From Sphingomonas kaistensis (GTDB lineage: Bacteria > Pseudomonadota > Alphaproteobacteria > Sphingomonadales > Sphingomonadaceae): a DNA stretch of 64,000 nucleotides. Both the position numbers and the translations under genes were made by a program. Positions 25,283-55,122 of the stretch are shown in pieces. The notes beneath the pieces were generated by a model that worked only from the letters and a program-made list of their open reading frames with translations, was not told the DNA's origin and searched no databases. Within the stretch, counting starts at the first letter, position 1. Each line of letters starts with the position of its first letter. Where the stretch lies: NCBI RefSeq assembly GCF_036884275.1, contig NZ_CP145607.1, forward strand, positions 372,001-436,000, given 5' to 3'.

Positions 25283-25327
25283 TGGTGCCGCTTACAGGAC
25301 TCGAACCTGTGACCCCCTCATTACGAA
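25283..25327. repeat. Left attachment site: 3' fragment of tRNA-Thr
   Basis: Forty-five bases identical to the 3' end (T-arm, acceptor strand and encoded CCA) of the tRNA-Thr at the right island boundary. After this point the sequence departs from the tRNA inside the anticodon arm, so it is not a functional tRNA. It marks the left junction with the chromosome, 45 bp after the response-regulator stop. Confidence 0.92.
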
Positions 25328-25580: not shown

Positions 25581-27149
25581 TCAGGCTGCGCCGGGAACCT
25601 CAGCAACCTTGCCTCCGAAACTCCTAGGCCCACCCGACCGGGATGCCAGAACACGGTAGACCGTCTCTGCAATCTTGTACGCTAGAAGCGGTGGCACAGC
25701 GTTTCCGACCTGAACATACTGTTCTGTTCGATTGCCTTCGAAGAAGTAGTTATCGGGAAAGGTTTGCAGGCGTGCAGCTTCGCGGACCGTCAAACTCCTA
25801 CATTGCAACACGTCCGGATGAATGAAGTAGTGACCATCCTTCGATATGTGGCTCGTGATGGTAGTCGCCGGGGCATCCCAGCACTGGACACGAAATCTGT
25901 CAGCGAACTTCCCCGATAGCCAGTTTGCATGTTGCGGTGCTAGATTACTTGGATACTCGTCTGCCTTGGGAGATCGCCCCTGGGTTTCTGCAAACGCGGC
26001 GGCGTACGCATAGCGGGCTAGGTCACCTTGCATGTGCCCTCGAGCTTCGTGGTTGAGCAGCCGGGTCAGCCTCGGATCCACGAGCCAAGCAGCCAAGGAG
26101 TTGTTCGAAACGGACGCGAGTTCCGTGGACTTGCGGGGAGGCGCTTCTTTCGAAGCTTTGAAGGCGCTCAGGTGCCGTGCCAAGCATTCCGCGACCCTGA
26201 CCGAAACGGAGGTTCCCATACGCAGGGCCCCCGATTCCGCAGCCATAAGCGCACTTGTAACAGCGAGCCGCCAAGTTTGCGGATCATCAACGGACCGACT
26301 GAGGCCGCTGCGAAGGCGAGGCATACTCCTGAGAACATCTTCAACCTTCGAGGTATTCCGCTCCAAAGCGAGATTGCATTTGCTCAAGTCCAACTCGGCG
26401 GCAATGTCAGCTCGAACCCCAAACAAGATCACCCGATGTCGCGCTTGGGGCACACCATGCCGCTCCGCCTTCACGACGTATTCTTGTCCGCTACGGCTGT
26501 AGCCCTCGACAAGGGGAATGATCAGATAGCTCTCTGGCGACGGTCCCGCGGCTCGCAAGTCGCGCAACACGCGATCAAAGATACGCTCTCCGTTTATGGC
26601 AGATGAAAGGAAGCCTTTGACGTTTTCCATGATGAATGCTGCGGGCTGCAGCCGCTCAAGTATTCGAATGTACTCTCTATATAGGAAATGCCGCTGATCT
26701 GCGGCAGCATCATAGTCCTGCTTGCCTAGATTTCGCGCGCGGCCGACCAGAGAGTAAGCTTGGCATGGTGGCCCACCAACGAGGACCACCTCGGCCCCGC
26801 TCCGCTCACGGATTGCGTCAAGCAGCGGATCGATCGTCTCAGCAGAAGAAGGCTGGCCGAGCTCAAGCTGATGCGTTTCTTCACATGCGGCCTGCCATTC
26901 CTGTGGATGGAGCCGCCCCAGCTCCTCCCGTGGCAGTTCCCCTGCCACGTACGCGTAGTAAGCCTCAGGAAGACTGCCACCGAATTGTCGAGTGAAGCTT
27001 CTGAGGCGCAGAGTCGCGAATGCCGATGCCTCCTTCTCTACCGAGAGTCGCACCTTGAAGGCGGGTGCGCCGTCCACTTTGTAAGCTGAGAAACCTTCTG
27101 CAAGGCCGCCCGGTCCAGCGAACAGATCTACCACCTCAAAACTGCGCAT
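25581..27149 (-). CDS. C5-cytosine DNA methyltransferase (DrmMII/Dcm type)
   Basis: The 522-aa protein carries the ordered m5C-methyltransferase motifs: I DLFAGPGGLAEGF (8-20), IV with catalytic Cys129 in GGPPCQAYS, VI ENVKGF (175-180), VIII QARHRVILFG, and X GNAVPPLLAYKIAE. ATG 27149 follows GGGAGG at 9 nt; a TTG three codons upstream abuts that site and is less likely. Between motifs I and IV there is an unusually long insert of about 100 residues. It is divergent, across 159 bp, from the AIPR-DrmE-helicase-DrmA-DrmB-Vsr operon. This suggests it protects self DNA for that system; Vsr at the far end would repair its deamination products. Target sequence unknown. Confidence 0.94.
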   Translation of the reverse strand: MRSFEVVDLFAGPGGLAEGFSAYKVDGAPAFKVRLSVEKEASAFATLRLRSFTRQFGGSLPEAYYAYVAGELPREELGRLHPQEWQAACEETHQLELGQPSSAETIDPLLDAIRERSGAEVVLVGGPPCQAYSLVGRARNLGKQDYDAAADQRHFLYREYIRILERLQPAAFIMENVKGFLSSAINGERIFDRVLRDLRAAGPSPESYLIIPLVEGYSRSGQEYVVKAERHGVPQARHRVILFGVRADIAAELDLSKCNLALERNTSKVEDVLRSMPRLRSGLSRSVDDPQTWRLAVTSALMAAESGALRMGTSVSVRVAECLARHLSAFKASKEAPPRKSTELASVSNNSLAAWLVDPRLTRLLNHEARGHMQGDLARYAYAAAFAETQGRSPKADEYPSNLAPQHANWLSGKFADRFRVQCWDAPATTITSHISKDGHYFIHPDVLQCRSLTVREAARLQTFPDNYFFEGNRTEQYVQVGNAVPPLLAYKIAETVYRVLASRSGGPRSFGGKVAEVPGAA

Positions 27150-27308
27150 GCGAACCAACCTCCCTCCGTTCGACTTACCAAGTCTTGCTGCGTGGTCCAG
27201 GGCAACGGAGAGCTTTCCACATCAATGAGGCATGCTGCAGCGGCCGGCGCTTCAGTTGCGAGCCATCAGCTTGGGAGCTAGCCTGCCTGATCAACCTGGA
27301 GAGTGCGC

Positions 27309-29345
27309 GTGACCGAAGACCTTGTCGCTTTCCGTTCCGGCTTGATCTCTGCAGCTCATGAAGAAGCGTCCATCGAAGGCAGCGAAGCGAATGCCGACCA
27401 CTTCGCTGCGATCGTTGGACGGCTTCTTGAGGAAGCAGGCATCGTTGAGAATCTCAGTCGTCTACCTTTTGACGGCATGATCGGCTCTGCTCGCGCGAGA
27501 ATGTCGTTGGGAGCGCTGGACGAGGATGGCGAGACCCTCATCCTGATGAGCGCTCTTCTTTGTGAGCCGGATAGCAAACTCGGCCTGCCTCAAATTCGCG
27601 AGGCGGCGGAACGCTGTTTGCGCTTTTACACCGAAGCAACTCGGGACGGGCTTCGCCGCGCCGAATGTGTAGCACCCGAAGTTCAGGAATTCGGAAAGCA
27701 AATCGAAAACACCGCTCAACAGATTTCATTGGTTCGAGTCATTGTTGTCACTGACGCTGAGATTCCTGCCGCAGTGCTGCAGGAGCGGCAGATCGAAGGC
27801 ACCATCATCCGCTTCGAGATATTCGATCTAAAGCGGCTGATCCGTGTACTCGGGGAAGGGGCATCACGCGAGGACATCGAAGTTGATTTGACGAACGAAT
27901 TAGGTGCGCCCCTACCATGCCTTAAGATCCCTTCCTCCACCGGCGAGTATGACACCTACCTGGCAGCCGTGCCGGGAGAGCTCCTGAGCAGGATTTACGC
28001 GAAGTTTGGCACCCGTCTTCTCGAGCTGAACGTTCGAGCTTTCCTGGGCGTCCGCGGAAAGAAAACCGCGAATGCAGGACTTCGAGACACCCTGCTCCGA
28101 AGCCCTGATCGTTTCCTAGCTTTCAACAATGGCATCGTCGCAACCGTAGATGACATATCCTTGTGTACGAACGAAAACGGCGTCGCGGTCGGCAGCCTCA
28201 AGGGCCTGCAGATTGTGAACGGTGGCCAGACCACTGCTTCACTCTTCAGGGCGAAACGGAAGGAGCGCGCAGACATCTCACATGTCATGGTCCCCACAAA
28301 GATCATTCACGTGAAAGGGAACGCGACCGCACTCGATGAAATGGTTCGAAGCATTTCTAGATCAGCGAATACGCAGAATACCGTCCAACCTGCCGACTTC
28401 TCAGCGAACGACCCGTTTCATTGGGACGTGGAGCGACTAGCGAACAATTCGTGGTCGCCGGACGGGCGAACTCGGTGGTTCTACGAACGGGCCAGAGGCA
28501 CCTATGGCGTTGCCGAAGATAATGCCGAGCTTAGTGCTGCAACCAAAAGGCTGTTTAAGGTCGAAACACCAAAAGAGCGAAGATTCACAAAGACCGACCT
28601 CGCCAGATACGTTTCGGCATGGGAGGGGCGCCCCTTTGAAGTCGCACGTGGTGGTCAGAAAAACTTCCAGTTATTCATGCAGCGCCTGAAGCAGTCTCCC
28701 ATCGAGATAGACGAGCCTTGGTTCCAGCGCCTGATCGCCACTGCGATTCTTTATCGGACCACTGAGCGGATTGTGCGGCAGGCCGGTTTTCCGGCCTATC
28801 GTGCGCTTATCTCTGCTTACACAGTGGCGTTGATAGGCCAGCTTACAGGCGGTCGAATGGATTTCGGCCTTATCTGGAAGCAGCAGAGTCTATCCGAAGG
28901 GTTTGAGGCACTGGTCGCCACTTGGGCAGCAGAGGTGGATCGCCTTGTGCGAGAAACCGCAGGCAATCGGATGCCAACGGAGTGGGCGAAGAAGGAGGAG
29001 TGCTGGGCCTCTTTGTGTGCGCAAATGCCCGCACCCCCGGCCGCTCTGCCTCCCGAGCTCATGCATCAGGGAGGACGATCACCAGAGCACGGAAGCGCCA
29101 AGCCGGCGGTGCCGCTGACCTCTGCGGATTACCTCCTCATCCAGAAGACGATGGAGCTTGACGCAGGAACCCTGCTTAGAATCAGTGAAGAGGGAAAGCA
29201 AAGCGGGCTCCTCCACTGGAAGGTAGCTGCGATTTGTCAGACCGTCGCAACTTACGCGGCCGGCGGCTGGAACCGAAGGCCGTCGGCCAAGCAATGCCGG
29301 GTTGTCATTGACGCGGTGGAGAAGGTTCGCGCCGCCGCCGATTGA
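27309..29345 (+). CDS. AIPR family protein (abortive infection phage resistance)
   Basis: The 678-aa protein starts at GTG 27309, 6 nt after GGAGA; another GTG at 27303 is too close to that site. The AIPR signature runs from about residue 215 to 370: LLELNVRAFLG, RDTLLRSPDRFLAFNNGIVATV, LQIVNGGQTTASL and SRSANTQNTVQPADFSAND. AIPR proteins occur in abortive-infection loci and in methylase-Vsr restriction systems; their biochemical activity is poorly defined. First gene of the defence operon; its stop overlaps the next start as TTGA. The role here (sensor or effector) is unknown. Confidence 0.9.
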   Translation: MTEDLVAFRSGLISAAHEEASIEGSEANADHFAAIVGRLLEEAGIVENLSRLPFDGMIGSARARMSLGALDEDGETLILMSALLCEPDSKLGLPQIREAAERCLRFYTEATRDGLRRAECVAPEVQEFGKQIENTAQQISLVRVIVVTDAEIPAAVLQERQIEGTIIRFEIFDLKRLIRVLGEGASREDIEVDLTNELGAPLPCLKIPSSTGEYDTYLAAVPGELLSRIYAKFGTRLLELNVRAFLGVRGKKTANAGLRDTLLRSPDRFLAFNNGIVATVDDISLCTNENGVAVGSLKGLQIVNGGQTTASLFRAKRKERADISHVMVPTKIIHVKGNATALDEMVRSISRSANTQNTVQPADFSANDPFHWDVERLANNSWSPDGRTRWFYERARGTYGVAEDNAELSAATKRLFKVETPKERRFTKTDLARYVSAWEGRPFEVARGGQKNFQLFMQRLKQSPIEIDEPWFQRLIATAILYRTTERIVRQAGFPAYRALISAYTVALIGQLTGGRMDFGLIWKQQSLSEGFEALVATWAAEVDRLVRETAGNRMPTEWAKKEECWASLCAQMPAPPAALPPELMHQGGRSPEHGSAKPAVPLTSADYLLIQKTMELDAGTLLRISEEGKQSGLLHWKVAAICQTVATYAAGGWNRRPSAKQCRVVIDAVEKVRAAAD

Positions 29346-32035
29346 ACCTGCGTGAATCAGTGCTTGACGCCGACGGTCTGTCCGTCTGTGTTGGTGGGCG
29401 GGGGCGACTTGTGTCGGATGAGAGTGATCGCTCAAGGGGCAGGCGTTTGTGCCCCGAACTGCTACTGCCCGGGGCCGCTGGCCGGCCGGCACCAGCCTCC
29501 CATCTTATGAAGCTTATCTGCAATGCGGCGCTCGCTGAGCCCACGGGAGGCATCTGCCTGCTGCTGCCGCAATCCCAAGGGGTCGAGCACCTGACATCAG
29601 TCATCGCGGCGTTCTCGTGTCTTCCTCGGGACACGGCTGACAACGCCTCGGCTCAGATTGCACGGACATTTTGCCCGGATCAAAAGGTAAGGGTTCTCCC
29701 CGATGGCTACGTGTACAAGGTCGCCGGGGTTGTGCCGCCGCACATCAGCGATCGACCAGGGTACTGGCTGCAGTACCTCGATGTAAAAAAAGGCGCTGGG
29801 AAGGGAAGGTTCGCGGTCTGGGGCGAGGATCTTCGCCGACTTGAGCCAACTGAGAGATCTCGCCCTTTGGGGCCAGATCGGAAGCTTTGGTCGAGAGCCG
29901 TCCCGACCACCATCGATCGGCTGTGCGGCACTCGGACCTTGGGCAATCATGCACTGCTAACAAACAGAGTTGTGCTCCTCGGTAGTCGGACCGACCTGCA
30001 GGCCTTCCTGCAAGAGACTAGGCTGCTGCCTACGGACTGCGAGGATACTGACTGCATCGACGCGCTGGGTAACGAGTTCCCTTGGGGCAGCGTCGGGGAG
30101 GATGGCACCGTTTACATAGAGCATCCTAGATCAACTCCAGGGGAGCCGCTCATCGCAGCTACTCGGAACTTCGTTGCAGCGCGACGAGCCGCTGAAGAGG
30201 CTTCAGTTGGAAGCAAGCTGTTCGTGAGCAAATGGCTCGATGGTGTGCTGCAGAATCTCGAGACGGCCTCGCGGATCGCTCAAAGGCAGCGCATGGTTGT
30301 TCTTGCCGACGCAAGCGCGAGGGACCGTGTATCGCTGCTCAGCAAGGACGGCTGGATTGTGTGGGAGCCGGCACCCTCGGAGTTGCTCGGCGATGATGAG
30401 AGCCGAATTGTAGGACTTCCGTGTCTCGACAAGAACACGCGCGCGGCTCGCCGCGAAAGAGAACTCGACCTGACTTGTGAAATCGCGAACGAGAGTTCCT
30501 TGGCAGATTGCTACGCTGCCCTGCAGCAACTCGGAGACGCGGTTGGGTCTGTCGACTTCGACCACGACGAGCTGTTGGATGATGCAGTCGAGGACCAACT
30601 TTCACGTCTATGGGGCCTCTTCCTAGAGGCGACCGGGTGGCTAATCACGCCGGAGGAAGAGCATCGGAAAGCCTTCCTAGCCCGAATGTCAGATGCACGC
30701 GGAGCCATTCTCTCTCTGAAACACACTACAGCTCCGACTGTGCTGCAGCCTATGACCCGAACTATCGACGCGCTTGCTGCCTTCATCGACCGATACGCTG
30801 CAGGTGCGACTACTCCAAAGGCTGACGCGCTGCTTGCGGCCATCGAAAGCCTTAACCCGCAGAGCATCGTGTTCGGAAGCGCCAATGACCGAGATCTTGC
30901 CAGATCGGCTCTGGAGGGCCTGGTCGCTCCGCAGGAAATCGTATCAGTGTCAGAGATGCGGGAGCATGTTGAAGGCGAGCGTGTGGTTGCCTGTTCGCTC
31001 ATGGCCAGGAAGACCTTCGCCCGTTTTTTCGATCCATGCCCTGCTTCTACAATCGCATTGGTAGCATACGACTTCGAGCAGCATATTTACCAATCACGAC
31101 TGGAGCGTCGAAGCAACCTCCGCAAACGGCTTTCACCCGATTTGGACGTCAAGGCGCGCTTAACGGGCTTCGCTGCGAGCACCTTCGCAAGCAAGAGACC
31201 GGAACCGCCGTCCAAGACTCCTGACGACAGCCCAATCGCAATTGAGCGCGTCGCCAGCGCATCTCGAAAACCGAAGTGCGTCTTGCCAGAGGGATCAAGG
31301 GCCGAGACGGACCAGACACGGGAAGGCAGGCTTTGTCGGTTTTCTGGCTGCTCGTGGGCGGTATTTACGCCAAATCACGCTGTTTCGGTGCTCGCTCAGC
31401 AGGGGACAAGTGCCATCATCCGCAGGACGGTCGATGAGCTGCTTACTGGAGACCGGCTGCTGCTCCGAGAGGCCGGGGATAAGGATGTCATTCGACTTAT
31501 CGCTGAAGATACGGCGGGCCCAACCACCTACGCGCAGCTCTGGGAAGCTGGACAGCGCTGGAAGACCGCTCTGAAGAAGATCTCACCGAACCCAGCTACG
31601 CTCTGGCAGAAGCTTTCCTGGCTCGGATTACACCGTGACCCCGTGACGATTCGCTACTGGCTGCTTGATGATGGCATGATTGGCCCGCGATCGCAGGACG
31701 ACATCTCAATAATCGTCGAAGCCGCAGGCGAGCAGCCCGACGACAAGAAGTGGCAGGAATGCTGGGACGCAATCGTGAGGTTGCGAACGCTGCACATGCG
31801 AGCGGGAATGCAGCTCACTCAAGCACTCGAGGAAGAGTGCAGCGACCTCATGTTCGCAGATTTCGAGCATGAGCAGGCGGTTGAACTCTCCTTGGGATTG
31901 CTTTGGCTCGTGTCCGTTCAAAGCATTCAAGCTCCTGCGCACTGGCCCGCGAACATCGTCAATGCACTCCATTGGGGGCGCGAGGACTGGCGTGATGACA
32001 TGCTGAGGAATGTTATAGTGGGAGCGGGTTGCTAG
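29342..32035 (+). CDS. DrmE-like ~900-aa protein of DISARM-type locus
   Basis: The 897-aa protein starts at TTG 29342, overlapping the AIPR stop (TTGA), so translation is coupled. I see no Walker, nuclease or methylase motif. Placement between a C5-methyltransferase and drmA/drmB, the length, and a C-terminal region with ELLTGDRLLLRE, TYAQLWEAGQRW and TIRYWLLDDGMIGPRSQDD agree with DrmE, the class-2 DISARM protein of unknown function. That assignment comes from context and remembered family features, not an alignment. The N-terminal ~55 residues look poorly conserved; an ATG at 29507 (MKLICNAALAEP) is a possible alternative start. Confidence 0.6.
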   Translation: MNLRESVLDADGLSVCVGGRGRLVSDESDRSRGRRLCPELLLPGAAGRPAPASHLMKLICNAALAEPTGGICLLLPQSQGVEHLTSVIAAFSCLPRDTADNASAQIARTFCPDQKVRVLPDGYVYKVAGVVPPHISDRPGYWLQYLDVKKGAGKGRFAVWGEDLRRLEPTERSRPLGPDRKLWSRAVPTTIDRLCGTRTLGNHALLTNRVVLLGSRTDLQAFLQETRLLPTDCEDTDCIDALGNEFPWGSVGEDGTVYIEHPRSTPGEPLIAATRNFVAARRAAEEASVGSKLFVSKWLDGVLQNLETASRIAQRQRMVVLADASARDRVSLLSKDGWIVWEPAPSELLGDDESRIVGLPCLDKNTRAARRERELDLTCEIANESSLADCYAALQQLGDAVGSVDFDHDELLDDAVEDQLSRLWGLFLEATGWLITPEEEHRKAFLARMSDARGAILSLKHTTAPTVLQPMTRTIDALAAFIDRYAAGATTPKADALLAAIESLNPQSIVFGSANDRDLARSALEGLVAPQEIVSVSEMREHVEGERVVACSLMARKTFARFFDPCPASTIALVAYDFEQHIYQSRLERRSNLRKRLSPDLDVKARLTGFAASTFASKRPEPPSKTPDDSPIAIERVASASRKPKCVLPEGSRAETDQTREGRLCRFSGCSWAVFTPNHAVSVLAQQGTSAIIRRTVDELLTGDRLLLREAGDKDVIRLIAEDTAGPTTYAQLWEAGQRWKTALKKISPNPATLWQKLSWLGLHRDPVTIRYWLLDDGMIGPRSQDDISIIVEAAGEQPDDKKWQECWDAIVRLRTLHMRAGMQLTQALEEECSDLMFADFEHEQAVELSLGLLWLVSVQSIQAPAHWPANIVNALHWGREDWRDDMLRNVIVGAGC

Positions 32036-33771
32036 TGGCCCGCCTTATCCCCCCGATCCCCCCAGCAGACATTCCGGATTCCGAGCGTCGGTTATTCGTG
32101 AAGCTGGCAGGCGAGCCCGGAACTGAGGATTGGACTGTTTTTCACTCTCTTGGACTCTCGAGCAGCTACACAGGTCACTTTGGAGAGATCGATTTCGTCG
32201 TTGTGATCCCAAAACGGGGCGTCGTCTGCATCGAGGTCAAGGGGGGCGGCGTATCTCAAAAGGATGGTGTCTGGAGATCAAAAGACCGCCACGGCTGGAC
32301 GCACGAGTTAAAGCGCTCGCCATTCGCGCAAGCCCGAAGTGCGATGTTCAAGTTGCGCAAGGCGGTGGAAGAAAGGTTTGGCCAGAACTCTGCGGAGGCG
32401 CATGTGCCCTTTGGATATCTGGTCGTTCTGCCGGATGTCGATTGTCCTCCTCCATGTCCGGAATTCGCTCGCGGAGATGTCTTGGACCGGCATAATCTCG
32501 AGCGGCCGATTGCTGCTCTCATAGAGAAGTGTCCCACGCTGACAGCGGCGATGCCCGGCGAAGGTGCGAGGGCAGCATTCCTTGCCCCCATAAACAGCTT
32601 GAAGAGCTTTTTCAGACCCGACTTCGATCGCGTTCGCACGGCGGGGGCCAGCCTTAAGCCAGTCGAGGATCAGCTAAGGGCGTTGACCGACGAACAATAT
32701 GATGCGCTCGACACGGTTGAGATAAATCCCCGTTGCGTGGTCATAGGCCCTGCGGGCACGGGCAAGACAACCCTTGCGGTCGAGTATGCCCGACGCTTAG
32801 CCGAGCAAGGAAAATCCGTGCTCCTGGCATGCTACAACAAGATGCTCGGCGCTTGGCTTGCAACAAGGGTGCAAGGCATGCCCGGGGGTCGGGTAGTAGC
32901 CGGCTCCCTACACAAACTGCTCGAAGACAGGATCAAAGTCAGTCAGTTCGCCGATGAGTTCCGCAAGCACCGCGGCCATCCCGATCTCTTCTCGGAGCTG
33001 TACCCCTTGTACGGAGCGATGGCTCTCGATGAAGCCAATGAGCGGTTCGATGCCGTGTTGATCGACGAGGCTCAGGACTTCCGCTCTGAAGCGCTTGTAG
33101 CCATTGCGAACGCGTGGATACGCAGCGTTGAAGGAGCTCAAGTAGTTCTGTTCGGCGACTACTCTCAGCAGGCGCTATACGATACACCGAAGGAAAGCCT
33201 CGACATTGCTCGATCATGCTTGGGGGCTTGCACCGTAGTCCCACTGACGAAGAATTGTCGGAACACCCGGCGCATTGCCGTTCAGACATCACATCTTTCC
33301 GGCTTCGCCAGCCTGAAACTGCATACCGGTCAGCCAGAGGGAGACGCAGTCGAGACGCTGTTCTACTCGAGGTCATCAGACCAAGGGGCACTGCTAGCAA
33401 AGGTCTTCCGAAAACTCAAGGACGATGGCATACCTGCAGATGAAGTCGTTGTCCTTGGAAAGTACCGGCTCGACAATTCAGACTTTTCCAAGTTGCCGAC
33501 TGAAAGCCCATGGCAACTAGCCGACGCAGCCTTCAGTCCCTCACCAAAGGGAATTGTCCCATATTCCACCATTTGGGCCTACAAAGGCCTTGAAGCAGCG
33601 GTAGTGATTATCGTTGATGTGGATACTTTGGAAGAAGGTGAAGGCGAGGCCCTCTTGTACGTTGCGATGTCAAGGGCCCGCGTTCAGTTGTACATGCTGG
33701 TTCATCGTAACTGTCGCGCTACATATGATCGGAAGATCGCAAAAGGTCTTTTGAAGGTAATCGGCCAATGA
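32035..33771 (+). CDS. NERD nuclease domain fused to SF1 (UvrD-like) helicase
   Basis: The 578-aa protein has an N-terminal NERD (nuclease-related) domain with GEIDFVVV (Asp53) and CIEVKGG (Glu67, Lys69), the D-ExK triad. Residues ~220-578 form an SF1 helicase: Walker A GPAGTGKT (238-245), Walker B IDEAQD (343-348), AYKGLEAAVVIIVD and LLYVAMSRARVQL. GTG 32035 follows GGGAG by 10 nt and shares its G with the preceding TAG; a TTG at 32029 is the alternative. The stop overlaps drmA (ATGA). It would unwind and perhaps cut foreign DNA. It is not a standard DISARM component. Confidence 0.88.
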   Translation: MARLIPPIPPADIPDSERRLFVKLAGEPGTEDWTVFHSLGLSSSYTGHFGEIDFVVVIPKRGVVCIEVKGGGVSQKDGVWRSKDRHGWTHELKRSPFAQARSAMFKLRKAVEERFGQNSAEAHVPFGYLVVLPDVDCPPPCPEFARGDVLDRHNLERPIAALIEKCPTLTAAMPGEGARAAFLAPINSLKSFFRPDFDRVRTAGASLKPVEDQLRALTDEQYDALDTVEINPRCVVIGPAGTGKTTLAVEYARRLAEQGKSVLLACYNKMLGAWLATRVQGMPGGRVVAGSLHKLLEDRIKVSQFADEFRKHRGHPDLFSELYPLYGAMALDEANERFDAVLIDEAQDFRSEALVAIANAWIRSVEGAQVVLFGDYSQQALYDTPKESLDIARSCLGACTVVPLTKNCRNTRRIAVQTSHLSGFASLKLHTGQPEGDAVETLFYSRSSDQGALLAKVFRKLKDDGIPADEVVVLGKYRLDNSDFSKLPTESPWQLADAAFSPSPKGIVPYSTIWAYKGLEAAVVIIVDVDTLEEGEGEALLYVAMSRARVQLYMLVHRNCRATYDRKIAKGLLKVIGQ

Positions 33772-36700
33772 GCGGCAACTACTTTGGCATTCCGGAAGAA
33801 CTCGGCAGTGCTGCAGCCGTCCGAGAGTTCGTCGTAAACTGGCTGCGCAGGGAGCTTGTTGGACCGGCACCCGGCCACCCGATGATGCAGTGGGACGGGC
33901 AGCGCCCTGAGCTCATCGGCGAGGAAGTCCTGCGTCCGCAGGACCCTCCAAGATATAGATACGGTGCTGGCATCCTGTTCCCGCGCGGAGTGACCTATTC
34001 GGGAAGTCTTGATCCTGGCGAGGGCACCGCGGCTCTCGAACAGGCCGAACCAATCGACAGCGATCGCGGTGATAACGAAGATGACGGTCAGGCTACTAGT
34101 TCTGCGCCCACGGATGATCGTTCCGAGGAGTCCGACCAGGATGTCGAACCGGCGTTCGTTTTCCTGCCCAGTACGATGGGGATCAGTTTCCTTGTCGAGA
34201 CGGAAGGAGATCTGGAGGTAGAAGTTGAGTGGGCAACCTACGAAGGTGTTACGCTCCGCGGCTACAGCACCAATTCGCGTTCTGAAGAGGGTCAGACACT
34301 CTGGTTCCGCCGGCCCACCCGACGAACACTTGAGCTCGATCGAGAGTCACTGCTGACCGTCCAGCAGCAGCGGAAAACACTCGTTGAGGAGTCAGGAAAG
34401 GCAACGCTCGTTCTCCATGTAATGAGCCGCCATTGGAGCACCTCTCCCACTACCCGGCTCGTCACCATCACACTCATGAACGCGAGCGAATCTGAACCGC
34501 GCAACGAAGCCTGTTTCTTCCAGTGCGGCTTTCAAGTGCGACCACTGCGCGGAAGCCGTATCCTTCCTTACGCCGAGAGGTCTGAAGAGCTTTCGGATGC
34601 CGAAGAGTTGTCGCTGCGGCTGCTGTACCGGCACCGGCCGATTTATGCAGTTGGACATGGTTGCGCCGCTGACTGGGAGACTGCCGAAGAAGGCGAAGTG
34701 AACGCCGTGCGCACGGAAGTGATGCCGGTCCACGAGCAGGCTCCCATTCTGCCGCGGGATCAGATTGCCGGGGTCGACCTTTCGATGGGACGCCTGGCAG
34801 AGGGAACGGTTGATCAGATCGTCGCTTCCTGCACGAGCCTTGCAGCCGCGTATGCTGCATGGATCGATGAACGTCGTGACGAACTGCAATCCGATCCCAG
34901 CTTGTCAGCTGCATTGCAGCAAGTGGCATCCCAGCATCTCGATAATTGCCTAGCCTGCCTCGAACGCATGAAAGACGGCATCGCGATCTTGAATTCCGAC
35001 GCAGATGCGCTTGACGCGTTCAAACTGATGAACAGAGCGATGGTAGAGCAACGAGCTCACTACGCTCTTTCGTCGGAAGCGGAGCTCCGCCGGGGCTGGA
35101 TCGAAGCCACAGGCGGCTACGCGCCAGAACGGACCTACAGTGCTCCCGAGTATCCCTACTCGACTGCCTGGCGGCCCTTCCAGCTCGCCTTTGTGCTCAT
35201 GAATCTTGCACCGTTCACGGAGCCAAAAGGTGCGGCCCGCGACCTCGTCGACGTCATCTGGTTCCCGACTGGCGGCGGAAAGACCGAAGCCTACTTGGGA
35301 CTGGCTGCCTTCAGCATCCTGCATCGAAGGTTGGTCGATCCGGCAAATGCGGGCACCACTGTGCTCATGCGCTACACGCTGCGGTTGCTGACAACTCAGC
35401 AATTCCAGAGAGCTGCGTCCCTGATCTGTGCGCTAGAGCTGATCCGGCGCAAGGACCCCGAGAGCTTCGGCACTGAGCCGATAACGATCGGCCTGTGGCT
35501 AGGCTCAGGCGTCACTCCGAACCGCAATAAGGAAGCCGTTTCCGATCTGGCGAAGCTCGGTCAGGGAGAGGGGGACAACCGGTTCATCGTCCTCTCATGT
35601 CCTTGGTGCGGGATCGACATGGGCCCCCGCGAATTCGGGCGAAAGACCCGTGTCTTTGGCTATGAGCCGCAGGCTAACCCGGCTCAGGTACGATTTAGGT
35701 GCGAGGATCCCGGCTGCGACTTCAATTCACACGCTGGCCTTCCTCTCGAGGTAGTCGATGAGCGCATCTACGCCTCACCTCCTACGATGATCATCGGGAC
35801 CGTCGATAAGTTCGCGATGATGCCTTGGCAGCCGGACGCGCGAAAGATCTTCGGCTTGGATGCGGACAAGCAAGTCACGCCACCGGACCTCGTCATACAG
35901 GACGAACTCCACCTGATTGCAGGTCCTCTCGGATCGATGGTGGGTCACTACGAAACAGTGATCGACGAGCTGTGTACCGGACGGATTGACGGCCGGCGCG
36001 TCGGCCCCAAAGTGATTGCGTCCACCGCGACGATCGCCAGAGCCGTTGAACAGGTGAAGTCGCTCTACAACCGTCCTGCAGTACTTTTCCCGCCTCAGGG
36101 TCTTCGCGCAGGGGAGTCGTACTTCGCACAGGAGCGAAAGGACGTATGCGGGCGCCTCTATGTGGGCGTGCTAGGCAGCGCTCTCTCGTCCCACGTGGTG
36201 GCGCAAATCAGGACTGTTTCCGCGCTTCTGCAGGCACCTGCACTGCTCGCGAAGCCTGCATGCGAGCCAGTCTCTGACGCCTTCCGTGACCCGTACTGGA
36301 CCTTGATGTGCTACTTCAACTCGCTACGGGAGCTAGGACGCGCAGCAACGCTGATACAAGCCGACATCAGGGAGTACCTGAACGCAGTCTGGGACAGGAT
36401 CGGACTGCGGGCAGACTTGCTCGGCGACGGCGCGAAGTCGCTCCGACGTTTCATCAACCGAGACGAGGAGCTTACCAGCCGCCTTCGCAGCAGCGAGATC
36501 CCCGGGACGCTGCAGAAACTGTTCACTGGGCTTCCGTCCCCCGCGACCGTGGACATGTGCCTAGCCACGAACATGATCCAGGTCGGGCTGGACGTCCCGA
36601 GACTAAGCGTAATGACGATCGTGGGCCAGCCAAAGACAGCTTCGGAATACATTCAAGCTTCCAGTCGCGTCGGTCGCGACAAGAACAAGCCAGGACTTGT

Positions 36701-37217
36701 CGTCACGAATTACAACCCGTTCAAACCGCGGGACAGGTCACATTTTGAAAGCTTCAGATCTTATCACGAGAACGTATACCGGCACGTCGAACCGACAAGT
36801 GTGACGCCCTTTGCCGTGCCCGTATCGGAACGGGCCATTCACGCTCTAGCCGTAACTCTGGCTCGCTACAGAGTTCCGGAGCTTTTACAGTCGCCGCAGG
36901 CGGGTATTTCGCCGAGCACTCGCGAGATGATCAGAGACGTAATCGGAACTCGGGCCGCGGCAGTCTCGCCTGAAGATGCTCGCGTAGCTCTGGAGAAGCT
37001 CGACGACTTCTTAGACCTATGGGATCGCTGGCGACCTCAGTCCTATGGCGACTTCATTGGCTCGAGTGAAAATGAACCTCTGCTCTGGCCGGCTGGGAAG
37101 TCGCCACCAGACGAGGAGTGGAAATACACCAAGCCCACCATGGCCTCGATGCGCAACGTTGATGCCGAAAGCGAGGCTGTACTAATTCGCGAGTACAGAA
37201 CCGGTGCGGTCTCGTGA
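33768..37217 (+). CDS. DrmA-like DISARM helicase
   Basis: The 1149-aa SF2 helicase has an N-terminal domain (WLRRELVGPAPGHP, PQDPPRYRYGAGILFP) characteristic of DISARM DrmA. Walker A FPTGGGKTEAY is near 499-509 and Walker B QDELHLIAGPLGS near 711-723. Between them sits an insert with CPWC and CEDPGC, a probable zinc ribbon. The C-terminal RecA lobe has ATNMIQVGLDVPRLSVM and QASSRVGRDKNK (~963-974). DrmA forms a DNA-loaded complex with DrmB in characterised systems. Overlaps the NERD helicase (ATGA) and drmB (GTGA). Family call strong; behaviour in this variant locus is inferred. Confidence 0.88.
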   Translation: MSGNYFGIPEELGSAAAVREFVVNWLRRELVGPAPGHPMMQWDGQRPELIGEEVLRPQDPPRYRYGAGILFPRGVTYSGSLDPGEGTAALEQAEPIDSDRGDNEDDGQATSSAPTDDRSEESDQDVEPAFVFLPSTMGISFLVETEGDLEVEVEWATYEGVTLRGYSTNSRSEEGQTLWFRRPTRRTLELDRESLLTVQQQRKTLVEESGKATLVLHVMSRHWSTSPTTRLVTITLMNASESEPRNEACFFQCGFQVRPLRGSRILPYAERSEELSDAEELSLRLLYRHRPIYAVGHGCAADWETAEEGEVNAVRTEVMPVHEQAPILPRDQIAGVDLSMGRLAEGTVDQIVASCTSLAAAYAAWIDERRDELQSDPSLSAALQQVASQHLDNCLACLERMKDGIAILNSDADALDAFKLMNRAMVEQRAHYALSSEAELRRGWIEATGGYAPERTYSAPEYPYSTAWRPFQLAFVLMNLAPFTEPKGAARDLVDVIWFPTGGGKTEAYLGLAAFSILHRRLVDPANAGTTVLMRYTLRLLTTQQFQRAASLICALELIRRKDPESFGTEPITIGLWLGSGVTPNRNKEAVSDLAKLGQGEGDNRFIVLSCPWCGIDMGPREFGRKTRVFGYEPQANPAQVRFRCEDPGCDFNSHAGLPLEVVDERIYASPPTMIIGTVDKFAMMPWQPDARKIFGLDADKQVTPPDLVIQDELHLIAGPLGSMVGHYETVIDELCTGRIDGRRVGPKVIASTATIARAVEQVKSLYNRPAVLFPPQGLRAGESYFAQERKDVCGRLYVGVLGSALSSHVVAQIRTVSALLQAPALLAKPACEPVSDAFRDPYWTLMCYFNSLRELGRAATLIQADIREYLNAVWDRIGLRADLLGDGAKSLRRFINRDEELTSRLRSSEIPGTLQKLFTGLPSPATVDMCLATNMIQVGLDVPRLSVMTIVGQPKTASEYIQASSRVGRDKNKPGLVVTNYNPFKPRDRSHFESFRSYHENVYRHVEPTSVTPFAVPVSERAIHALAVTLARYRVPELLQSPQAGISPSTREMIRDVIGTRAAAVSPEDARVALEKLDDFLDLWDRWRPQSYGDFIGSSENEPLLWPAGKSPPDEEWKYTKPTMASMRNVDAESEAVLIREYRTGAVS

Positions 37218-39061
37218 GGCGCCCTGGACGGTCTCAGGCTGGACCCAGAAGAAGGCCGGCATTGGTCCGCAAACGGCCCGTACGGAGAGGTTCGCTGATC
37301 TCACCGTTCGGAGTTGGTGCGATTACCGATTTTCGAAACGATGAGGCGCTCATGTGCGCAGGCATCGATAGCTGGTTTGCCGAAGGGCCACCCTCAGATC
37401 TGCGCATCGCGGAGGAACGTCTTCAAGCGAAGCTTGGCAGGGCTTTCTTCGTGCTTCCGCCCGACTTCAGCGAGAACACGGGGGGCCCGAAGCTCAGGGT
37501 CCCTTACGTCCGCTTCCCGAGATGGCATTACTGCCCCAGATGCTTCCGGATGTACAAAGCGCCAATCTTTGGCGATCAGCCCAACTGCAACGCCTGCTCA
37601 GAGGGTAGATCGCGCGGCCGGCGGATGATCCCCATCCGGATCGTGGCGGCCTGCGAGAGCGGACACGTGCAGGATTTCCCATTTCGCCGCTGGATCGACT
37701 GCACTTGCGCCGATGGTGGCGAGCTGTACTTCAAGTCCGGTCGGAGCGCCGCCAGCATTCAGGGCACGAAGGTGGAGTGCAAAAGCTGCGGCAAGATACA
37801 ATCGCTTGCCCACGCATTTCAGGACTTTGCCCTTGATAGCAAGGGAGCTCACTGCACCGGGGCTCGGCCTTGGCTCGGCGAAGATCCGGGCGACGAAGAT
37901 TGCAGGCAACCGCTCAAAACGCTGCTCCGCGGCGCTTCGAACCTCTATTTCGCGAACGTCGCGAGTTCGATCTACATTCCAACGGAGATCGCGCAGGTAG
38001 ACCCAAAGATCAGGAGCATGCTGGAAGACCCAGCGAAGTGGGCAGCACTAACCGCTGGAAATGTAGACGGACAAGTAAATGAGACCGCTATCAGGATGGT
38101 GGCGCAACTGAGCGGTGTAGATGCAGAAGTGCTGCTGGCCGCGGTGCTTGCAAAGCTTTCAAGATCTCAGCGGCGGGAGCAGCAAGCAGGATCGGAAGAG
38201 GAGTTTCGCAGGCAGGAGTTCGAGGTACTGAGGCAGGGCAGTGCTGACCATCGATCGGACTTGTTGTGCGAAGTGGTTCCTGGAACGCAGTACGGCTGGC
38301 TCTCCGGTTTCGTGCGGTCGGTCGGGCTGGTCCGTAAGCTCCGCGAGACCCGTGTCCTGACCGGCTTTACGCGGATCAACCCGCCTGGGGGAGCCGGTGC
38401 CGAGCAGCACCTGTCCCGAGCTCCTCATCCGGACTGGTTGCCCGCGACGGTCGTCAGAGGCGAAGGCATCTTCCTCGAGCTTGATGATGAAGTTGTTACC
38501 AAGTGGGCACGAACGAAGCCTGTGATTGACCGTACGTCGGCGCTTCTCGCCCGTTACGACGGGCAAAGGGTCAGCAGGAATCTCGAGCCTCGCGGCATCG
38601 ACGCACGTTTTCTGTTTTTGCACACCATGGCTCACGGGCTAATCAGAGAACTCACCTTCTTGTGCGGATACGGTTCCTCTGCCCTCCGAGAACGCATTTA
38701 CTGCAGCCTTGAAGACCGAGCGAGGCCGATGCTTGGCATGCTGCTCTACACTGCCTCGGGCGACTCTGAAGGAACGCTAGGTGGGCTCGTGAACCAAGGC
38801 ACCGCCGGCAAACTGGAGGAGCTGGTGCTTGCAACGATTCGAAGATCGATGTGGTGCTCCAATGACCCGGTTTGCGTCGAGAGCCCGGCACAAGGAGCTG
38901 GGAGCGTGAATCTCGCTGCGTGCCACGGCTGCACGTTGCTCCCCGAAACAAGTTGTGAGGAGGGAAACCGGCTTCTTGATAGAGCGCTCCTCATCGGCAC
39001 GCCGGAATGTCCTGATCTTGCATTCTTTGGGCCAGCCGGTGTTCGCTCGCCCGCCCATTAG
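37214..39061 (+). CDS. DrmB-like DUF1998 protein
   Basis: The 615-aa protein starts at GTG 37214, overlapping the drmA stop (GTGA). The N-terminus has RRGSLISPFGVGAITDF, then a cysteine cluster (HYCPRCFRMYK, NCNACSE, DCTCADGG, ECKSCGK) likely to bind zinc. The C-terminal DUF1998 region has FLFLHTMAHGLIRELTFLCGYGSSALRERIY and a second Cys/His group (CHGCTLLPETSCEEGNRLLDR). DUF1998 proteins pair with DrmA-type helicases, and DrmB is a core DISARM subunit. Vsr starts 45 bp downstream, while the expected DrmC is absent. Confidence 0.88.
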   Translation: MRRPGRSQAGPRRRPALVRKRPVRRGSLISPFGVGAITDFRNDEALMCAGIDSWFAEGPPSDLRIAEERLQAKLGRAFFVLPPDFSENTGGPKLRVPYVRFPRWHYCPRCFRMYKAPIFGDQPNCNACSEGRSRGRRMIPIRIVAACESGHVQDFPFRRWIDCTCADGGELYFKSGRSAASIQGTKVECKSCGKIQSLAHAFQDFALDSKGAHCTGARPWLGEDPGDEDCRQPLKTLLRGASNLYFANVASSIYIPTEIAQVDPKIRSMLEDPAKWAALTAGNVDGQVNETAIRMVAQLSGVDAEVLLAAVLAKLSRSQRREQQAGSEEEFRRQEFEVLRQGSADHRSDLLCEVVPGTQYGWLSGFVRSVGLVRKLRETRVLTGFTRINPPGGAGAEQHLSRAPHPDWLPATVVRGEGIFLELDDEVVTKWARTKPVIDRTSALLARYDGQRVSRNLEPRGIDARFLFLHTMAHGLIRELTFLCGYGSSALRERIYCSLEDRARPMLGMLLYTASGDSEGTLGGLVNQGTAGKLEELVLATIRRSMWCSNDPVCVESPAQGAGSVNLAACHGCTLLPETSCEEGNRLLDRALLIGTPECPDLAFFGPAGVRSPAH

Positions 39062-39106
39062 TGACCTGTCCTGCAAGCGGGCGACTGGCAAATCCGAGCG
39101 ACGTCG

Positions 39107-39526
39107 ATGAGTGACGTCGTGGACCGAACGACGCGGTCCCGCATGATGGCGAACATCCGTGGCAAGAACACCAAGCCGGAGGTAGAACTGCGCAGTGCGC
39201 TCCACCGCCGCGGCCTGCGCTTTCGGATCCACGACAAGAGACTGCCCGGCAGGCCGGACATTGTGTTTCCGAAGTACAAGGCTGTCGTCCACGTGCACGG
39301 GTGCTACTGGCACCGCCATCGCGGTTGTCGTTTCGCTACCACTCCTTCTTCGAACATTGAATTTTGGCAGGCGAAGTTCAACAGCAACGTAGATCGAGAC
39401 TGGAAGACGGATAGAGCTTTGAAGGAAGCCGGTTGGCGAACCTTCGTCGTGTGGGAATGCTCCATGCGGGAAGCTGGCGCGACGGCCATTGCGGCAAAGG
39501 TGCACGAGTGGCTGCTGTCGCACTAA
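39107..39526 (+). CDS. vsr: Very short patch repair (Vsr) endonuclease
   Basis: The 139-aa protein has every Vsr landmark at or next to its usual number: Glu25 (NTKPEVELR), Asp51 (LPGRPDIVF), Cys66, His69 and His71 (VHGCYWHRH), Cys74, FWQAKFNSN and Cys118 (VVWECS). Vsr nicks T:G mismatches left by deaminated 5-methylcytosine, matching the cytosine methyltransferase at the other end of the locus. It may instead serve as an effector nuclease in place of DrmC; that is inference. It lies 45 bp after drmB and is probably cotranscribed. Confidence 0.93.
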   Translation: MSDVVDRTTRSRMMANIRGKNTKPEVELRSALHRRGLRFRIHDKRLPGRPDIVFPKYKAVVHVHGCYWHRHRGCRFATTPSSNIEFWQAKFNSNVDRDWKTDRALKEAGWRTFVVWECSMREAGATAIAAKVHEWLLSH

Positions 39527-41349: not shown

Positions 41350-42264
41350 ATGCCTAGGATTGTGAAGCGTGTTGTTCTTGGAGCTGTAGCGATGTCGCTC
41401 GCGAGTCCGGCCCTCGCGGACAAGTACTTCGCAGTGACACCATCGGGAGCGACCGAGACCCTCTTCGCCGACAAGCCGCAGACGGTTTCCGGCCAGCTTG
41501 CTGCTCGGTGTATGGATGCGAAGTGGACGGTAGTAAGTTCAACGCCAAACCACGTTACTTGCGAAGCTCCCTTGAACATGGGCCAGTCGATCCTTGGCCA
41601 GATGCTCATGGGGAACAGCTACTCCACGCCTCCCCGCCGCTTCTACAGGTTCGGCATCGCTGAGATTAACGGCATCTCCCGTGTTCAGGCCACCGGCTGG
41701 ATGGAGTTGCAGATGGCCTTCGGACAGATAAAGCGGAATGATTTCAGCGGGCCCGAATTCCATAACTCAGCTATGAACTTTATGGCCTCGGCCGGCGGGA
41801 AGCTGCCGCCGGGAACTACCTTTCCCAACCATGCCGTTCTTGGCTTTGAGAGCGAGCAAGCCTCGCTTGGTAAGATTAACGTTCCGCGAGTGACTAAGAT
41901 CGAACCCGGCTCCGCAGCTGAGAAGTCGGGCATGCAAGTCGGAGACCTTGTCACCAGAGTGGCAGGTGAGCGGTTGAAGAGCCAGAACGACTATCTTGAT
42001 GCGGCAGCCAAGGCCGCATCCTCCTCCACTTATGAAGTGGAAGTCATGCGCTCTGGAAAGGCGCTAAAACTCACCCTGCAGCGCGCTTTCAGACCAGCTT
42101 GGACTGAGCAAGTCGTCGCTATAGCGCCGTCTGCAACGACTCTTCCACAACAGGTACCAACATCGGTCGCAGATGAGCTTGCCAAACTCGCGAAGCTAAG
42201 GAGCGACGGTGTACTCAGCGAGCAGGAGTTCCTCGCGCAAAAAAGCAAGCTTCTCGGCCAGTAG
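41350..42264 (+). CDS. Exported PDZ-domain protein with C-terminal SHOCT-like segment
   Basis: The 304-aa protein has a signal peptide (MPRIVKRVVLGAVAMSLASPALA), an unassigned domain (~25-170), a PDZ domain (~175-250: VTKIEPGSAAEKSGMQVGDLVTRVAGERL) and a C-terminal SHOCT-like helix pair (ELAKLAKLRSDGVLSEQEFLAQKSKLL). No protease triad is visible, so it is a binding rather than catalytic PDZ protein. It is followed after 6 bp by the EEP gene and then the HD gene, apparently one operon, although this product is exported and the others are not. Confidence 0.75.
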   Translation: MPRIVKRVVLGAVAMSLASPALADKYFAVTPSGATETLFADKPQTVSGQLAARCMDAKWTVVSSTPNHVTCEAPLNMGQSILGQMLMGNSYSTPPRRFYRFGIAEINGISRVQATGWMELQMAFGQIKRNDFSGPEFHNSAMNFMASAGGKLPPGTTFPNHAVLGFESEQASLGKINVPRVTKIEPGSAAEKSGMQVGDLVTRVAGERLKSQNDYLDAAAKAASSSTYEVEVMRSGKALKLTLQRAFRPAWTEQVVAIAPSATTLPQQVPTSVADELAKLAKLRSDGVLSEQEFLAQKSKLLGQ

Positions 42265-42270
42265 CCGTCA

Positions 42271-43005: not shown

Positions 43006-43014
43006 GAGAACAAG

Positions 43015-46644: not shown

Positions 46645-47796
46645 CTAACCGTTCATGCCTGCCGCACCCGCTTCGACGGCACGCATGAGCGTTTCATTGG
46701 CAAGATGGGCGTAGCGCATTGTGGACTTGTGATCCGCATGACCAAGGATGCGCCCGACGGCATACAGATCGACCCCGCCGTTGATCATGAAGCTCGCTGC
46801 CGAGTGGCGAAGATCGTGAATGCGAAGGTCGCGTAGCCCTGCCTCTCGCCGAGCCGTGTGCCAGGCGTGCTTGATCGACACGAAAGGCGCACGGGTTTCC
46901 GGATTGGGGAGGACGTAAGGACACCCGTCAAACCGATGCAGTGACGTCAATACGTCAACTGCAGCTTGGCTTAGCGGTACGTAGCGCGACTTGCCCGTCT
47001 TGGTGATGGGAATGTGCCATGCTCGCCGATCAAGATCGACGTGGCGCCATTCCGCATTGAGCAGCTCCGATACCCTGGCGCCGGTCAGTAGAAGCAACTG
47101 CAGTATCGACTTTAGCTGAGGATTGAGCGACTGACCTGCAGCTTCGAGGAGCCGGCCGGCCTGTTCGCGGGTGAGAAACTTTGACCGCGCGTTATCAAAG
47201 CGTGGTCTTGGGACGCTGCGGACCGGATTGGCGGCCACTCCGGGCATGCCCCACTGACGGGCTAACTCGAACGATCGCCCGAACGTAACCCTGATCTTCT
47301 CGACAGATGCGGGTGCGAGGCCTTCAGCAGCCTTCTGGGCCAGCCACTGAGCGATGTCCTGCGGGCGGATCTCGTCGAGCCGGAGTTTACCCCAGCGCGG
47401 CACCAGATGCACACGCAGCAGCCCTTCGATCGATTCCCAGCTACGCTGATAGCCCTTGGCATGCGCCAGGTGCTGTTCGGCCAAGGTGGCATAGGTCGGG
47501 ACGGCCTTCAGTATCTCTTTGTCTGCTAACGGGTCACCACCAAGCACAACTTCCGATCGGAGCCGCTTGGCAGCCTTGCGGGCCTGGTCCAGTGAAATGT
47601 CGTGGTACCCGCCGATCTTCAGTTGCTTCTGCCGACCGCGGCTATCTTGGTACCTCAGGTAATAGGTCTTGCCGCCACTGGGGCGCACTTCGAGTACGAA
47701 ACCACTTATCTGCGTGTCCCAAAGATCGAGCTTTTTCTTCGAAGGGTCGCAGGTCGCCAGAAGGCAGGTTTGTGCATCTAATTTGAGCTTGGGCAT
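46645..47796 (-). CDS. int: Tyrosine recombinase / island integrase
   Basis: The 383-aa protein starts at MPKLKLDAQTCLLA, 8 nt after AAGGA; an earlier in-frame ATG at 47838 is less supported. The N-terminal arm-binding domain (DLWDTQISGFVLEVRPSGGKTYYLRYQ) is that of P4-type integrases. A core-binding SAM-like domain spans ~100-200. The catalytic set is complete: Arg241 (GARVSELL), Lys266 (PITKTGK), His327 and Arg330 (HDLRH), His353 (LGHADH) and Tyr362 (MRYAHL). It should catalyse integration/excision at the tRNA-Thr repeats. It lies inside the island, 7 kb from the right repeat, which is unusual. Confidence 0.95.
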   Translation of the reverse strand: MPKLKLDAQTCLLATCDPSKKKLDLWDTQISGFVLEVRPSGGKTYYLRYQDSRGRQKQLKIGGYHDISLDQARKAAKRLRSEVVLGGDPLADKEILKAVPTYATLAEQHLAHAKGYQRSWESIEGLLRVHLVPRWGKLRLDEIRPQDIAQWLAQKAAEGLAPASVEKIRVTFGRSFELARQWGMPGVAANPVRSVPRPRFDNARSKFLTREQAGRLLEAAGQSLNPQLKSILQLLLLTGARVSELLNAEWRHVDLDRRAWHIPITKTGKSRYVPLSQAAVDVLTSLHRFDGCPYVLPNPETRAPFVSIKHAWHTARREAGLRDLRIHDLRHSAASFMINGGVDLYAVGRILGHADHKSTMRYAHLANETLMRAVEAGAAGMNG

Positions 47797-47938
47797 CTGA
47801 TACATCCTTGCATGCGCAATGGGGCAGTCGGCCGGCAAAGAGCCGACGCACCCGAGTTGCTGTTTGTTGAAGTTGAGGCGGCCTGGACGGCCAAGGCAGT
47901 CGAATGGCTGGTTCGTTAGGCTTAGACGAAGCGCTTCT

Positions 47939-52698: not shown

Positions 52699-52699
52699 G

Positions 52700-54923: not shown

Positions 54924-55046
54924 GGCAAGCTCCAACTCACAATACCAAGCCAAGTAAGCTCTCGGCCGCTTAGAGCAGGGACCCAAGCCAAGCCCAAGCG
55001 AAAGGCGCTTTGACCATCGTTGCTGCAAGGTTGCTTGTGGAAGGGG

Positions 55047-55091
55047 TGGTGCCGCTTACAGGACTCGAACCTGTGACCCCCTCATTACGAA
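55047..55091. repeat. Right attachment site within tRNA-Thr
   Basis: The same 45 bases as at 25283-25327, here forming the 3' part of the intact tRNA-Thr gene. Marks the right island boundary, where the island-supplied tail restores the tRNA. Confidence 0.92.
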
Positions 55092-55122
55092 TGAGGTGCT
55101 CTACCAACTGAGCTAAAGCGGC
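55047..55122 (-). tRNA. tRNA-Thr (anticodon CGU)
   Basis: The 76-nt cloverleaf has acceptor GCCGCTT pairing with AAGCGGC, a D-loop with AGTTGGTAGA, an anticodon stem CCTCA/TGAGG with loop TTCGTAA (anticodon CGT), a T-loop GTTCGAGTC, and an encoded CCA end. It reads ACG codons. Its 3' 45 nt are duplicated at the other island end. Confidence 0.96.

Follow-up and report, generated by a model that had tools for sequence, protein, structure and literature searches.

A DISARM-related operon with a NERD-helicase and no recognised DrmC gene on a probable genomic island of Sphingomonas kaistensis

DISARM is described in two classes sharing a DrmA/DrmB core, namely class 1 (type I in PADLOC), with DrmD, DrmMI, DrmA, DrmB and DrmC, and class 2 (type II), with DrmA, DrmB, DrmC, DrmE and the methylase DrmMII. 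Both PADLOC definitions require DrmC (PMC9252829), a phospholipase D (PLD) nuclease otherwise reported as dispensable and often missing (PMC9142583). In a 2025 preprint on the YprA family of helicases, DISARM is presented with PLD nucleases, and NERD appears in TALON, a mainly chloroflexotal pairing of a YprA helicase with a NERD nuclease (PMC12458937); the words AIPR and DrmE are absent from its main text. The DRT-associated NERD-helicase (RTasNERD-Hel in PADLOC) fuses NERD to a superfamily 1 (SF1) helicase and partners a reverse transcriptase system. The present analysis deals with a seven-gene locus of Sphingomonas kaistensis, lying within a stretch of 64,000 nucleotides (assembly GCF_036884275.1, contig NZ_CP145607.1, positions 372,001 to 436,000 of the forward strand; hereafter the window), in which DrmA and DrmB are encoded next to a NERD domain fused to an SF1 helicase and DrmC was not found. 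With a confidence slightly better than even, this locus is interpreted as a mobile anti-phage operon, that is a DISARM variant where the NERD-SF1 helicase-nuclease, rather than the PLD nuclease DrmC, would be the DNA-degrading partner of DrmAB; the name NERD-DISARM is coined here for it.

All seven genes listed in a preliminary description of the locus, made from the sequence alone, were retrieved with profile support (Table 1), the DrmA and DrmB calls being above the NCBIfam cut-offs, and both proteins match the solved DrmAB complex of Serratia (7s9v). The stop-start overlaps reported there through the first five operon genes are likewise present, i.e. 4 bp for AIPR/DrmE, 7 bp for DrmE/NERD, 4 bp for NERD/DrmA and 4 bp for DrmA/DrmB, as taken from mechanical open reading frame (ORF) starts, and Vsr closes the operon 45 bp after DrmB. 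DrmMII is the top PADLOC model for the 5-methylcytosine (m5C) methyltransferase, at 314 bits vs. 240 for the generic MTase_II, and its translation displays the PPCQ, ENV and QxRxR motifs. The RPD and HGCxWHxH stretches of the Vsr protein align with those of E. coli Vsr (1cw0), the likeness extending along the whole length. At the locus, a DrmC profile derived from five annotated genes found no match, no PLD nuclease was recognised, and the HxKx4D pattern, put forward in that description as the PLD motif, occurs in none of the seven operon proteins, nor in any island ORF of at least 90 amino acids (aa); over window positions 20001-56000, the single hit among 102 ORFs of that size runs antisense to a chromosomal ORF beyond the island limits. 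The seven-gene set without a DrmC or PLD gene is confirmed as an observation.

Table 1. Position and supporting matches of the operon genes and of the island features in the window
Feature	Coordinates	Strand	Evidence
m5C DNA methyltransferase, DrmMII-like	25581..27158	-	PF00145 150 bits; PADLOC DrmMII 314 bits
AIPR, MzaE-like	27303..29345	+	PF10592 279 bits; PF22879 (AIPR_N) 69.7 bits; NF041935 (MzaE family) 466 bits, below cut-off 1050
DrmE-family protein, 897 aa	29342..32035	+	NF038316 (NCBIfam DrmE_fam) 99.8 bits, cut-off 80; PF24957 (Pfam DrmE_C) 37.4, cut-off 27
NERD nuclease domain fused to SF1 (UvrD-like) helicase	32029..33771	+	PF08378 46.3 bits, cut-off 22.1; SF1/UvrD helicase models; PADLOC RTasNERD-Hel 139 bits
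DrmA, YprA-family SF2 helicase	33768..37217	+	NF038325 (DISARM_DrmAS) 956.3 bits, cut-off 950; solved DrmA 7s9v E=2.2e-153
DrmB (DUF1998/MZB)	37214..39061	+	NF038324 (DrmB_fam, subfamily model) 435 bits, cut-off 240; solved DrmB 7s9v_B E=6.3e-77
Vsr mismatch endonuclease	39107..39526	+	TIGR00632 138.7 bits, cut-off 97.85; E. coli Vsr structure 1cw0 E=4.6e-33
Left attachment repeat, 45 bp, identical to 3' part of tRNA-Thr	25283..25327	+	Exact direct repeat with 55047-55091
Tyrosine integrase of island	46645..47838	-	PF00589 116 bits; Arm-DNA-bind_3 63.6 bits
tRNA-Thr(CGT), integration site	55047..55122	-	ARAGORN; right attachment repeat 55047-55091 inside

Compared with class 2 DISARM, the locus shares DrmA, DrmB, a DrmMII-like methylase and the DrmE family, but it has no DrmC, its DrmE reaches just 16.3 bits against a cut-off of 250 for the class-2 equivalog NF038323, and it adds the NERD-helicase, AIPR and Vsr. 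Regarding type II membership, the DrmA, DrmB and DrmMII features are therefore present and the DrmC and DrmE equivalog features missing, so that the earlier label of class-2-like had to be dropped and the DrmE-like call, sound for the family, does not extend to the equivalog. With class 1 the DrmA/DrmB core is common, the window DrmA aligning with that of Serratia, but DrmC was not found and the locus is devoid of DrmD and of the MmeI-like methylase, profiles of DrmD and DrmMI built from class 1 loci giving no match in window positions 20001-56000. TALON has in common the association of a YprA-family helicase with NERD but possesses an ARMADA-like helicase as well as TPR-CSD and TBP genes, whereas the window has separate DrmA and DrmB genes and a NERD fused to an SF1 helicase; a Pfam scan of 20 island ORFs gave no match to the TPR-CSD fusion or to TBP. 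The same scan gave no reverse transcriptase match, which sets the locus apart from the DRT-associated NERD-helicase despite an identical NERD and SF1 helicase architecture. In the portion of PMC11090510 searched, a DISARM-like cassette is mentioned beside McrBC, without NERD or AIPR. For DISARM together with NERD, Vsr, AIPR, DrmE, DUF1998 or MzaE, the searched article text of openly licensed papers gave no description of this gene set. In this literature and in the profile libraries searched, the set does not appear as a catalogued subtype, and it has the look of a DISARM variant that recurs but is poorly catalogued.

The recurrence was appraised on 115 DrmA-profile loci, gathering plasmid and whole-genome loci with those from genome contigs scanned with a DrmA alignment, where the best 80 of at least 578 relatives were kept by similarity to the window DrmA. 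A NERD-helicase lies within 6 kb of DrmA and on its strand in 56 of the 115, a share inflated in this best-match sample as NERD-type DrmA sequences were part of the query alignment. It immediately precedes DrmA, at no more than 250 bp, in 41/56 loci, 29 of these 41 having a DrmE-like gene directly upstream of the NERD-helicase in turn, directly downstream of DrmB in 7/56 and elsewhere in 8/56. The order DrmE, NERD-helicase, DrmA, DrmB is kept in the closest relatives (G554, L014, L015, L018 and L019), and the NERD-helicase-DrmA-DrmB arrangement was found in loci from many phyla, as judged from record titles and gene maps. All seven genes are detected by profile in L022, arranged differently, and six of them in L026, with two unmatched ORFs at the place of DrmE; L047 has the gene set without NERD. 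Since the NERD-helicase recurs with DrmA and DrmB across so many loci, the gene set looks like a DISARM-related variant with a shared core and not a one-off mixture. The hybrid of two defence architectures proposed in the preliminary description is thus borne out as regards the combination of a DISARM core with AIPR, m5C methylase and Vsr, but not as a peculiarity of this locus.

L022, L039, L047 and L035 have a shorter DrmE-like ORF, upstream of which lies a further ORF of 331-369 aa, so that the 897-aa form of the window may correspond to two genes elsewhere. In G554 (L012 12613-17991), DrmE-like sequence follows, in one fused ORF, an N-terminal portion some 900 aa long that matches AAA ATPases weakly, and L014 has a similar long ORF. 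Direct searches with the window protein recovered its own genome only among 289 genomes of the class, its own and one other among 398 of the phylum, and nothing in plasmids or viral contigs, a NERD-helicase not being found in the latter either; DrmE-like genes proved more widespread by profile searches on the fetched loci. The class-2 DrmE model matched 0/398 genomes, but also 0/14 controls, which makes this search uninformative; no class-2 DISARM reference with DrmC is among the loci gathered.

At the residue level, NERD E53 and D55 are kept in 55/56 homologues, the remaining one being a gap, and E69, K71 and Q101 in 56/56, as are Walker A K246 and motif II D346/E347 of the helicase part. NERD is grouped among PD-(D/E)xK endonucleases (PMC12458937), and with its intact motif this domain is the likeliest nuclease of the operon. 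Of the two candidates formerly advanced to replace DrmC, NERD is retained and Vsr set aside. In DrmA, R1294 has been described as a DNA contact and V1296 as the proposed methylation-sensing residue (PMC9142583); their equivalents, deduced from alignment end points (query 1132 on 7s9v_A 1297), are R1129 and V1131, kept in 112/113 and 111/113 DrmA rows, respectively.

For the distribution of the two nucleases, 98 of the 115 loci were kept, 17 being dropped for insufficient flanking context, and NERD or DrmC was scored present if within 6 kb and on the same strand as DrmA, methylase and Vsr if within 9 kb. NERD alone occurs in 52 loci, DrmC alone in 10, neither in 36 and both in none (Fisher p=2.9e-4); four further DrmA loci on plasmids (L119-L122), outside the 115, gave no DrmC match. 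A draw of 398 genomes spread evenly over the window's phylum gave 15 DrmA model matches; leaving out one partial match (G037), the 14 loci comprise four with NERD (window included), six with DrmC, four with neither and none with both, bearing in mind that three of the six DrmC matches are weak (34-44 bits) and beside a remote DrmA of 335-370 bits, and that one of the four loci with neither sits on a 3.4-kb contig. NERD-helicase homologues at E<=1e-10 are present in 9/398 genomes and co-occur with DrmA (p=1.5e-4, or p=1.8e-3 with the window excluded). The five best (E<=1e-30) are all beside a YprA-family helicase, four of them next to DrmA or DrmB and one next to DruE with DruF-like sequence upstream; around the four weaker homologues, DrmA was not found in the fetched stretches. 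A second case next to DruE is a Leisingera plasmid. In L129 (9044-10657) and in L010 (9962-11692), a homologue directly follows DruE, the NERD-helicase accompanying Druantia helicases too.

Several of these results tell against the proposed role of the NERD-helicase. In addition to the enrichment of the sample in NERD types, the 56 loci include L010, where the helicase is DruE and not DrmA, and three with weak NERD scores (57-99 bits), while the nuclease activity itself is putative. L039, a NERD locus, has a DrmC-like match 7.7 kb from DrmA on the opposite strand, and five of the 12 DrmC loci had served to build the DrmC profile. In a 113-row DrmA tree (L010 and L112 left out), the NERD vs. 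DrmC labels need 2 changes, compared with about 11 when shuffled, the NERD label requiring 16 once all rows are counted; an independent-pairs test returned p=1, DrmC differing in at most 1 of 14 pairs, so that it had no power. NERD and DrmC mark different DrmA branches and their exclusivity follows descent, for which reason it was rejected as a proof of repeated replacement. Moreover, with neither NERD nor DrmC in 36/98 loci, a nuclease encoded in the operon may be dispensable. Finally, AIPR was retrieved in just 7/115 loci, i.e. the window, L022, L026, L039, L047, L087 and, weakly, L035; a small search of 6 genomes gave none.

The accessory genes exhibit patterns of their own. The m5C methylase accompanies 43/52 NERD loci vs. 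17/46 others (p=4e-6) and Vsr 23/52 vs. 9/46 (p=0.011), as raw counts in which kinship is ignored. Over the 98 loci, Vsr and methylase occur together in 31, methylase only in 29, Vsr only in 1 and neither in 37 (p=1e-7). The described role of Vsr is the repair of deaminated 5-methylcytosine (PMC12907096) and, given that 31/32 Vsr loci carry an m5C methylase as well and that the kinship with the E. coli mismatch endonuclease is clear, such a repair function is the simpler and more likely one here, rather than that of an effector nuclease. The restriction partner is a different one elsewhere: G554 has a nuclease gene of AspBHI/Mrr type, the Rhodococcus plasmid pROB02 has NaeI and a Rhizobium rhizogenes plasmid has a DUF2357 protein. 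The whole is read as a conserved core around which methylase-linked add-ons, AIPR and Vsr among them, can be exchanged. A relation of AIPR to the ParB/sulfiredoxin-like fold of DUF262, suggested by the QIVNGGQTT stretch, was also considered; profile comparison with one DUF262 protein gave no match and the idea was not used.

In the mechanism envisaged for NERD-DISARM, the DrmMII-like enzyme would place 5-methylcytosine on host DNA, and DrmAB would load on DNA that is unmethylated and has single-stranded 5' ends, then translocate. DrmE, translationally coupled, might bridge DrmAB to the NERD-helicase, by which the invading DNA would be unwound and cut, the T:G mismatches arising from deaminated 5-methylcytosine being presumably repaired by Vsr, and AIPR could be an exchangeable add-on effector or regulator. 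A broader proposal, advanced tentatively and held a little less probable than its contrary, is that the NERD-SF1 helicase acts as a swappable nuclease motor for YprA-family immune helicases in general, serving DrmA here and DruE elsewhere; this would define a third DISARM type filling the nuclease gap of DrmC-less DISARM, around whose core methylase-linked add-ons (AIPR, AspBHI/Mrr-type, NaeI or McrC-like) would be interchangeable.

The same gene set could also result from two adjoining systems, with the m5C methylase, AIPR and Vsr forming a type II-like restriction module that encloses a separate DISARM-like core of DrmE, NERD-helicase, DrmA and DrmB. AIPR, methylases and Vsr are indeed named as members of other restriction operons (PMC2292703), the restriction partner varies between loci (AspBHI/Mrr-type, NaeI, DUF2357) and AIPR is scarce as counted above; yet AIPR and DrmE overlap by 4 bp in the window and, in L026, 2 bp separate the end of AIPR from the following ORF, the methylase is DrmMII-like with an m5C methylase recurring in 43/52 NERD loci, and L022 gathers all seven genes by profile in another arrangement, which makes this explanation unlikely, if still a serious contender. 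The absence of DrmC could alternatively be compensated in trans by a host PLD protein, the NERD-helicase doing no more than remodelling or loading DNA. Host PLD nucleases have been proposed as stand-ins for DrmC (PMC9142583) and the genome encodes three PLD-domain ORFs elsewhere, but these ORFs, of 434, 495 and 844 aa, appear more like ordinary lipid or polyphosphate enzymes, and an active site of NERD kept in nearly all 56 homologues would be unexpected if the helicase part alone mattered; such an arrangement is considered rather improbable.

Improbable to a greater extent is a class-2 DISARM that lost DrmC and where the NERD-helicase is a passenger: while the DrmMII-like methylase, the DrmE family, DrmA and DrmB are all in place, the window DrmE falls under the class-2 equivalog cut-off, the NERD residues are conserved and the NERD-helicase-DrmA-DrmB arrangement is found in many phyla. 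As for Vsr being the effector nuclease, an effector function has been predicted for the Vsr domains of ARMADA helicases (PMC12458937) and the gene comes last in the operon, close behind DrmB, but it is absent within 9 kb of 29/52 NERD loci, lies on DrmA's strand in 11 of the 23 cases where it is present near the 56 NERD loci, is nearly always found with an m5C methylase (31/32) and resembles the E. coli mismatch enzyme over its full length, leaving very little probability to this option.

As to the genomic setting, a 29.8-kb integrated island most likely carries the operon as cargo, considering the G+C-poor block in which the operon lies (0.55-0.61 in 2-kb windows, vs. mostly 0.64-0.70 outside), the 45-bp tRNA-Thr repeats and the internal integrase (Table 1). 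Among congeners, an empty integration site was not found with a 328-base query, which gave only short scattered matches beyond the tRNA part in 41 genomes, its own included, and the two island-flanking genes were not found in five 3-kb loci. Next to the integrase, an 878-aa protein with a RepB-primase domain (47939-50575, -) suggests a satellite-like or integrative element. The island also encodes a UDG-superfamily ORF directly followed by a gene matching the PADLOC candidate PDC-S18 at 473 bits (52051-53611, +), likely a further defence pair, an ORF matching the PADLOC candidate PDC-M72B over residues 219-363 (43794-45233, -), a run of three genes (41350-43581, +) for a PDZ and SHOCT protein, an endonuclease/exonuclease/phosphatase-family protein and an HD-domain protein, as well as a Schlafen AlbA_2-type protein adjoining the tRNA end (53667-55028, -).

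For the DISARM family at large, DrmC-less loci of this kind may be missed by PADLOC or labelled as partial, because both of its definitions require DrmC; generic names are given to the DrmA genes of five plasmid records where a NERD-helicase adjoins DrmA or DrmB. How DISARM degrades DNA has been called a mystery (PMC9142583). In an operon family that lacks the PLD gene and where DrmA is translationally coupled to a nuclease-helicase with intact motifs, a single gene can now be named as the candidate for DNA destruction.

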